NCBI GenBank assembly: GCA_019637805.1
Contig: JAHBVB010000001.1
Location: forward strand, 695,875 to 759,874
DNA: 64,000 bases
Direction of reading: 5' to 3'
DNA from: Anaerolineales bacterium
GTDB taxonomy: Bacteria > Chloroflexota > Anaerolineae > Anaerolineales > UBA11579
Part shown: one piece after another, positions 55,054-56,699 of the stretch
Layout of the letters: each line of letters starts with the position of its first letter
Numbering within the stretch: position 1 is the first letter of the stretch
Made by a program: the position numbers and the translations under genes
The notes under the pieces: generated by a model
The model's database searches: none
What the model saw: only the letters and a program-made list of their open reading frames with translations
What the model was told of the DNA's origin: nothing

Positions 55054-55139
<86 letters not shown>

Positions 55140-55141
55140 AG

Positions 55142-55166
55142 ACCGCTCGCAGCGAGCGGTTTTTTG
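55142..55166 (+). terminator. tRNA-Leu terminator
   Basis: ACCGCTCG (55142-55149), loop CAG, CGAGCGGT (55153-55160), then T6. Confidence 0.9.
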
Positions 55167-55202: not shown

Positions 55203-55230
55203 TTGACACGCAATTCGCAATCGGTATAAT
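55203..55230 (+). promoter_or_regulatory. Strong promoter of the small-RNA candidate
   Basis: TTGACA (55203-55208), 16-bp spacer, TATAAT (55225-55230): both boxes are perfect consensus. No protein gene follows on this strand before the terminator at 55301. Confidence 0.88.
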
Positions 55231-55236
55231 CACCTT

Positions 55237-55328
55237 GACGAGCGTCTGGGTGCCCCCCTCACCTAGGCGCTTGTCGCTTTAATCGCCTCATGCAAAACAA
55301 AAAACGGGCGCCTCTCGGCGCCCGTTTT
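55237..55328 (+). ncRNA. Candidate small RNA with a C-rich apical loop
   Basis: About 92 nt from the predicted start to the terminator. GACGAGCG (55237-55244) pairs with CGCTTGTC (55268-55275) through eight pairs including one G-U; inside, CTGGGTG (55246-55252) pairs with CACCTAG (55260-55266). The apical loop is CCCCCCT (55253-55259). An unpaired A/U-rich stretch (55276-55300) leads to the terminator hairpin. C-rich loops in known bacterial sRNAs bind G-rich ribosome-binding sites. It is not tRNA, 6S, SRP or tmRNA by any motif I can see. Confidence 0.6.
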
Positions 55329-55332
55329 GCAT
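55301..55332. terminator. Terminator shared by the small RNA and the 55345 gene
   Basis: AAAACGGGCGCC (55301-55312), loop TCTC, GGCGCCCGTTTT (55317-55328): a perfect 12-bp stem with U runs on both strands. Confidence 0.9.
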
Positions 55333-55344
55333 TTCTGTGTCGGT

Positions 55345-55998
55345 CTACTTTTTGTTTAGGTTGGACATCAGCATCTTGAGCGCCGCATTGGCGATCAGCT
55401 GCCCGGACTGAGAGCGGTGTTCACTCTTGCCCATCTCCGTACCGGAGACCAGCGTCTGGGCCAGTTGGCCAATATCAATCCCCGCGTCCTGTGAAGACTG
55501 CAGCAGATCCAGGCCCAGGCTCAACCAGTCGGTGCCGCCGCTTTGTTGGCTGCTGGCCGTGCTCTTCTGGCTGCCAGCCAGGCCAGACACCAGGCTGCCC
55601 AGCAGACTGCCAGCCAAATCCTGGCCGGAGCTGGCGCTGCTCTTCTGACCACCGTTGAGGATGGTCATCAATAGGTTAAGCGCCAGGTCAATTGGCAGCC
55701 CATCCGCCTTTTCGCCCAAGGCCTGCTTGGCCGCCTGGGCCAAACCGCCAGCCAGCACATTGGCGGAGCCGCTCTGGCTCTTCTGGCGCACCAGGTCAGC
55801 CGCATACTCCAGTTGGCTGGGCAGGTCGGCGGTCTTCTTTTCGCGCATGGCCTGCTGCACGACTTCCATGATCTGCACCATGTTGTCGCCGTGGTTGCCA
55901 TTGTAGCTATCGGCCTTGTTCAGCTGCGAACGATTTTGCTGCAGCGCGTCCGTGGCTGCGCTGAACAGGTCGATGAAATTAACAGTTTGTTGTGCCAT
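55345..55998 (-). CDS. Unrecognised 217-residue cytoplasmic protein
   Basis: No signal peptide or membrane helix. The N-terminal third (FIDLFSAATDALQQNRSQLN, DNMVQIMEVVQQAMREKKTA) is helical with an SYNGNHGDNMV turn. The rest is rich in Gly, Ser, Gln and Ala with recurring Leu heptads (AGSLLGSLVSGLAGSQKSTA). The composition is that of a self-assembling or flexible protein. I know no family for it. Its transcript ends in the terminator shared with the small RNA. The bioY gene lies 20 bp upstream on the same strand, so it may be cotranscribed with bioY. Confidence 0.65.
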   Translation of the reverse strand: MAQQTVNFIDLFSAATDALQQNRSQLNKADSYNGNHGDNMVQIMEVVQQAMREKKTADLPSQLEYAADLVRQKSQSGSANVLAGGLAQAAKQALGEKADGLPIDLALNLLMTILNGGQKSSASSGQDLAGSLLGSLVSGLAGSQKSTASSQQSGGTDWLSLGLDLLQSSQDAGIDIGQLAQTLVSGTEMGKSEHRSQSGQLIANAALKMLMSNLNKK

Positions 55999-56018: not shown

Positions 56019-56588
56019 TTAGTTCTTTACCAACTTCCAGGCTGCTGGCAACAGCAGGGCGGCCAGTAAGGCCTTGATGGTATCACCTATTAGGAAAGGA
56101 TACAGGCCGGCCGCCAAAGCTTGCGACCAGCCGCCCATCAGGGTTTGCAGCCAGGCAATGCCAAAGACGTAGATCACCAAGTTGCCCAGCCCCATCGCCG
56201 CCAGGGTGGTCCATAAGCTGCGGTCCCACCCGCGTTCGGCGAGCCAGCCCACCAACCAGGCGGCAGGGATGAACCCCAGCAGATAACCGCCCGTGGGGCC
56301 GGCCATATAGGCCAGGCCGGCTTGCGCGCCAGTGAAGAAGGGCAGGCCTGCGCCGGCCATGCCCAGGTAGCCTAGCACGGCCACCGGGCCGCGCCGGCTG
56401 CCCAGGGCCATGCCCACCAGCAGCACAGCCAGGGTTTGGCCGGTGATCGGCACTGGCTGTAGTGGGATACGCACCTGGGCCAGGGCGGCGATGAACAGCC
56501 CGCCCAGCAGGATCAGCAAGCCATCCGCCAGGGCGCCGGGTTTGGCGCCGGAGCGGGTCAGTACTTTTTCAGCCAAGACTTGTTGCAT
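56019..56588 (-). CDS. bioY: Biotin transporter substrate-binding subunit BioY
   Basis: 189 residues from ATG 56588 with GGAGGAG upstream. Six membrane helices. VRIPLQPVPITGQTLAVLLV and GPTGGYLLGFIPAAWLVGWL are signature BioY (S-component) blocks. It binds biotin and works alone or with an ECF energy module; no bioM/bioN is in the window. A 30-bp inverted-repeat operator candidate lies 21 bp upstream (56609-56638). The first gene of a possible bioY-55345 unit. Confidence 0.95.
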   Translation of the reverse strand: MQQVLAEKVLTRSGAKPGALADGLLILLGGLFIAALAQVRIPLQPVPITGQTLAVLLVGMALGSRRGPVAVLGYLGMAGAGLPFFTGAQAGLAYMAGPTGGYLLGFIPAAWLVGWLAERGWDRSLWTTLAAMGLGNLVIYVFGIAWLQTLMGGWSQALAAGLYPFLIGDTIKALLAALLLPAAWKLVKN

Positions 56589-56608
56589 AGCAGTCTCCTC
56601 CAAAGAAA

Positions 56609-56638
56609 AACCACGGTGAAAATAATAACACCGTGGTT
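56609..56638 (-). promoter_or_regulatory. Operator-like inverted repeat upstream of bioY
   Basis: AACCACGGTG (56609-56618) and CACCGTGGTT (56629-56638) are perfect 10-bp arms separated by an A/T-only spacer. On the minus strand the spacer holds TGTTATTAT, an extended -10-like element. The arms do not match the BirA consensus orientation. Confidence 0.6.
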
Positions 56639-56699
56639 CCCTATAAGAGGCGGCAGCCCTGGTCACGAAACAGGTTTTCAGTCAGCCCAGCGCTATGGG

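Follow-up and report, generated by a model that had tools for sequence, protein, structure and literature searches.

The closest described systems are small RNAs with C-rich loops. Those of mycobacterial B11/6C act on G-rich mRNA sites (PMC10470900), and those of Xanthomonas sX13 act, independently of Hfq, on motifs rich in G close to the start of translation (PMC3771888). In Pxr, from a host without hfq, the loop of the first stem-loop is essential for function (PMC5684412). The subject of the present analysis is a hairpin RNA encoded in a 64,000-nucleotide stretch of DNA from an Anaerolineales bacterium, here called the window; it belongs to a previously uncatalogued family present in most Anaerolineales genomes. 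To our knowledge, the small RNAs of the Chloroflexota are almost undescribed, and no paper on them was found in the literature searched. C/U-rich sRNAs of the RsaE, LhrC and CcsR types also carry C-rich seeds, and some are multi-copy; their architecture differs from that of the Anaerolineales hairpin, and their models were covered by the whole-Rfam scans.

The Anaerolineales RNA resembles 6C (RF01066; B11 in mycobacteria, Actinobacteria) in the run of six C in a hairpin loop, in having hosts without a known sRNA chaperone, and in its broad conservation within its group. The two differ in that 6C has two C-rich hairpins and comes from another phylum, whereas the Anaerolineales RNA has one. In the members read, each promoter unit carried a single C-loop hairpin, and a two-hairpin array was seen only at locus L240. 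There (about 620–760, genome G002, contig C1), two long C-loop hairpins stand in close tandem with no clear promoter each, and one of the loops has seven C. Membership in 6C, which calls for two hairpins with at least six C in each loop, was rejected on this architecture; it was also rejected on score, the Rfam model falling below its gathering score, with nothing above the cut-off in 21 relatives. The best Rfam match, itself sub-threshold, was Pxr (RF01812, myxobacteria), which scored 23.6 bits where the cut-off is 80. Pxr is alike in that its first-stem loop is C-rich in the Rfam consensus, and differs in its three stem-loops, its linkage to the pxrR/pxrK two-component genes and its phylum. 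The neighbours in the window are tRNA-Leu, an ORF and bioY, and pxrR/pxrK were found neither there nor among the family's neighbours. Membership in Pxr was rejected on the score, none of the 21 relatives exceeding the cut-off. sX13 differs in having three stems and a length of 115 nt, and no sequence relation to it was seen. With Rfam 15, the window and twelve related loci gave no match at gathering score except tRNAs. The family is treated here as analogous to 6C, Pxr and sX13 by working analogy only, with no homology implied.

The features of the window locus, in window coordinates, are these:

55054–55136, plus strand: tRNA-Leu(CAA), the upstream neighbour, with its own terminator-like site at 55139–55163
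55203–55208, plus strand: −35 hexamer TTGACA (promoter scan); the family keeps the −35 as TTG(A/C)
55225–55230, plus strand: −10 hexamer TATAAT (promoter scan)
55237–55252, plus strand: 5′ arm of the 16-bp hairpin (folding); 55237 is the putative transcription start, from promoter spacing
55253–55259, plus strand: loop CCCCCCU, with near-invariant UG/CA closing pairs (family alignment)
55260–55275, plus strand: 3′ arm of the hairpin (folding and covariation)
55276–55282, plus strand: conserved single-stranded tail GCUUUAA (family consensus NUUUAA), where conservation stops
55283–55300, plus strand: variable linker, unconserved in the family (member comparison)
55301–55328, no strand assigned: terminator-like hairpin, bidirectional, common to the convergent gene and locus-specific (terminator scan)
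55345–55998, minus strand: 217-aa convergent ORF beside bioY, with its end at the shared terminator
56019–56666, minus strand: bioY

The promoter scan matched TTGACA, a 16-nt spacer and TATAAT (55203–55230) to the consensus at 12 of 12 positions, the chance expectation being 0.4 promoter-like sites in the 3-kb region. The perfect promoter reported by a first-pass annotation of this DNA was therefore borne out, as were its CCCCCCT apical loop (55253–55259) and its placement of the unit between tRNA-Leu and the bioY-linked gene. It had drawn a two-part stem of 8 and 7 pairs, which is a small error. The hairpin starts at 55237, 7 nt past the −10, and reads GACGAGCGUCUGGGUG-CCCCCCU-CACCUAGGCGCUUGUC, followed by GCUUUAA; 55237–55252 pairs with 55260–55275 as a single continuous 16-bp helix, G-U pairs included. 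Folding gave −28.2 kcal/mol (z −6.2) for the 46-nt unit and −52.7 kcal/mol (z −8.6) for the 97-nt transcript through the terminator. Promoter, hairpin and tail of this copy together span 55203–55282. The same annotation had made the terminator an integral part of the RNA unit. The hairpin at 55301–55328 is real, but it is bidirectional, and its U-run is longer on the minus strand, the strand of the bioY-side gene, which ends there. It is absent from the syntenic copy in genome G003 (L031), which also follows tRNA-Leu. The terminator thus serves the convergent bioY-side gene as well and does not belong to the family, and the mature RNA may therefore be about 46 nt long. The 217-aa ORF had no Pfam match.

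Matching copies in relatives were recovered by blastn, and the 31 members so collected were used to build a covariance model, R1. R1 matched in 37 of 41 close relatives and in 240 of 301 sampled Anaerolineales (Chloroflexota) genomes; among good genomes of the order the count was 153 of 174, and 97 of 112 genera had the RNA. In samples of the class and of the phylum, searched under strict filters by which weak members could be lost, R1 was positive in 19 of 20 and 24 of 25 genomes of the order, and in none of about 278 and about 276 others, respectively. A broader model, R2, extended the set with paralogs and, from another family of the same class, one plausible member that is not of the order (L270, in genome G778). 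With 32.6 bits, a 16-bp hairpin, the loop CCCCCCG and a TATAAT a few nt upstream, it is probably a genuine member. Four weak matches in other classes, hairpins without a C6 loop, were discarded. As a near-universal RNA, absent from Rfam, of a whole and environmentally abundant order, the family is a candidate global post-transcriptional regulator.

Genomes carry 1–10 copies, often in tandem, and each copy, tandem ones included, usually has a promoter to itself. The description of the RNA as an orphan was wrong, as the window genome has two copies (C1:751108 and C2:747456) and the order has hundreds. The second copy (L175/L081, G000:C2:747456–747506) is followed after 62 nt by a PDH/oxoisovalerate-dehydrogenase-E1-like gene, and the relatives G010, G005 and G012 preserve this arrangement.

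Among 140 members, the conserved block begins at the first base of the stem and ends with UUUAA. In 118 of 138 members, the stem starts 6–7 nt after the last base of the −10. Promoters matching at least 9 of 12 positions, at a fixed distance to the stem, were present in 88 of 138 members versus 2 of 135 control positions, and the family alignment has an A/T-rich stretch upstream of the −35. Of 138 distinct cores, 135 have exactly the loop CCCCCCU; in the remaining three the motif is shifted in register or has one C more, seven in all. Both closing pairs, U-A and G-C, were constant in a divergent set of 37 members, and UG-CCCCCCU-CA is essentially invariant across the family. The lower stem is free in sequence and retains its pairing, which was kept in about 98.5% of stem cells (98.6% over the 138 distinct cores). 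In paralogs L242, L254 and L258, all that is retained of the lower stem is pairing and a length of about 16 bp; it can be replaced wholesale with loop, pairing and helix length unchanged. Because evolution has largely randomised the lower stem in so large a family, which letters matter is directly testable.

Compensatory changes in the stem among relatives were the check proposed in the first-pass annotation, and it was passed strongly. In the 37 divergent members such changes occurred at 13 of 16 pairs, with a covariation score of 0.83 versus 0.24 for shuffled alignments; that set was gathered by a model that rewards pairing, but the 31 members collected by blastn already had compensatory change at 10 of 16. 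What the analysis supports of the original proposal is a small RNA gene whose C-rich loop is functional; it does not support the orphan status, the two-part stem or the integral terminator. The multiple, partly tandem copies might suggest a repeat at the DNA level, or a hairpin arisen by chance, without any role as RNA; compensatory substitutions and a promoter at fixed distance speak so clearly against it that we find it scarcely credible.

The surroundings of family members bear on whether the RNA is an independent unit. tRNA-Arg(CCU) lies upstream on the same strand in 72 of 140 members, with a median gap of 86 nt (L054, L065 and L111 are examples of this order), and tRNA-Leu(CAA) lies upstream in three of the 140, the window included. 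Downstream neighbours, named from sequence and not from a family search, vary: class-V aminotransferase/cysteine-desulfurase-like genes in either orientation, RecN on the opposite strand, and TrmH/SpoU-like methyltransferase, PDH-E1-like, RNase-Z-like and PPOX-like genes. A sizeable fraction of the loci have a gene on the same strand that starts within about 120 nt and is not separated from the RNA by any terminator found; such copies would double as 5′ leaders. The hairpin might then be a cis-acting leader, stabilising or regulating the downstream gene, and in several lineages no terminator separates it from an aminotransferase-V-like, TrmH/SpoU-like methyltransferase, PDH-E1-like or PPOX-like gene. 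Yet the downstream genes have no function in common, and no consistent same-strand downstream gene or pathway, as for a riboswitch or cis-leader class, was found among the family loci. Moreover, the csd-like neighbour shares the strand of the RNA in one set of genomes and converges on it in another, an inconstancy that speaks for an independent RNA; sequence conservation ends at UUUAA; and many copies terminate before a convergent gene, a strict pattern finding a terminator within 150 nt downstream in 42 of 140 members versus 5 of 140 controls. A leader of one gene class was rejected, given neighbours that vary in function and orientation, and a role as cis-acting leader of the downstream gene appears unlikely.

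With a terminator in only 42 of the 140, most copies have no obvious separate one. The start-proximal hairpin might itself be a transcriptional device, its own terminator or a promoter insulator, the released RNA being functionless. The stem is GC-rich and followed by a U-run of mostly 3–4, and in the G003 copy a pattern scan scored the hairpin itself as terminator-like. Such a device would not, however, require the invariant CCCCCCU loop, and the AA of UUUAA is conserved yet unneeded for termination; we regard this explanation as quite improbable.

On balance, and by analogy with the described RNAs, we lean towards a trans-acting, Hfq-independent C-rich-loop sRNA produced from an autonomous noncoding RNA gene of an order-wide family. 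Like C-rich-loop trans-acting sRNAs, it has an exposed, conserved C-run in its apical loop, and promoter statistics, which are derived from sequence only, point to an autonomous transcription unit with its own promoter. RNA polymerase would start at the first stem base, so that the RNA would begin with a rigid 16-bp hairpin displaying the 7-nt CCCCCCU loop, with UUUAA after it. The 3′ end might be set by the nearby terminator, giving about 95 nt at the window locus, or directly past UUUAA by the hairpin itself or a nuclease, giving about 46 nt. The stem would serve as a stabilising scaffold, and the loop, acting in trans, would pair with G-rich mRNA stretches without Hfq, like known C-rich-loop sRNAs. 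The family probably regulates genes by base pairing. Hfq was found in none of 31 relatives, in a search whose controls worked, a result that is consistent with Hfq-independence and no more than that. Among bacteria lacking Hfq, the RNA would add one more independent instance of the C-rich-loop solution. A more specific version, which we offer tentatively as a possibility, is that the regulatory RNA is minimal, about 46 nt long and nothing beyond the start-site hairpin, with transcription starting at the first pair and stopping right behind the hairpin. The stem would be a ruler of about 16 bp whose sequence is free, the invariant UG-CCCCCCU-CA cap would be the whole active part, and in Anaerolineales, which would lack Hfq, the RNA would act as a core regulator across the order.

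We hypothesize that the loop pairs with G-rich ribosome-binding sites. No G-run enrichment was found at 143 gene starts, the start calls being crude and ORF-based. The loop complement AGGGGGG is depleted in the window genome (9 versus about 25 expected); RNA-linked avoidance was rejected, however, as depletion differed little between RNA-bearing and RNA-free genomes (0.46 versus 0.58). These two outcomes weigh against mRNA pairing and count in favour of the main rival, a protein-binding element in which a loop-recognising RNA-binding protein would use the RNAs as decoys or cofactors with no mRNA pairing. So do the constant length of a helix that is free in sequence and an invariance that reaches beyond the C-run to the two closing pairs and the last loop U; recognition by a protein would account just as well for the conserved sequence of those pairs. 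On the other hand, no protein is known as a candidate for this role, the C-run lies exposed, and loops of this type in other bacteria do pair with mRNA (PMC10470900, PMC3771888). Protein recognition is judged a rather doubtful alternative to an RNA that acts by pairing.

Two further observations concern possible partners of the RNA. The 16S 3′ end of the window genome is the usual GGATCACCTCCTTTCT, and the UCACCU of the RNA is part of the 16S anti-Shine-Dalgarno stretch, which we note as a lead only. At L182 (18717–18767, minus strand), CCCCCC-AATACTGTT-AGGGGGG stands just before the ribosome-binding site of a Rep-like gene that adjoins an integrase gene; the AGGGGGG site in this leader is possibly a target or a mimic of the loop.
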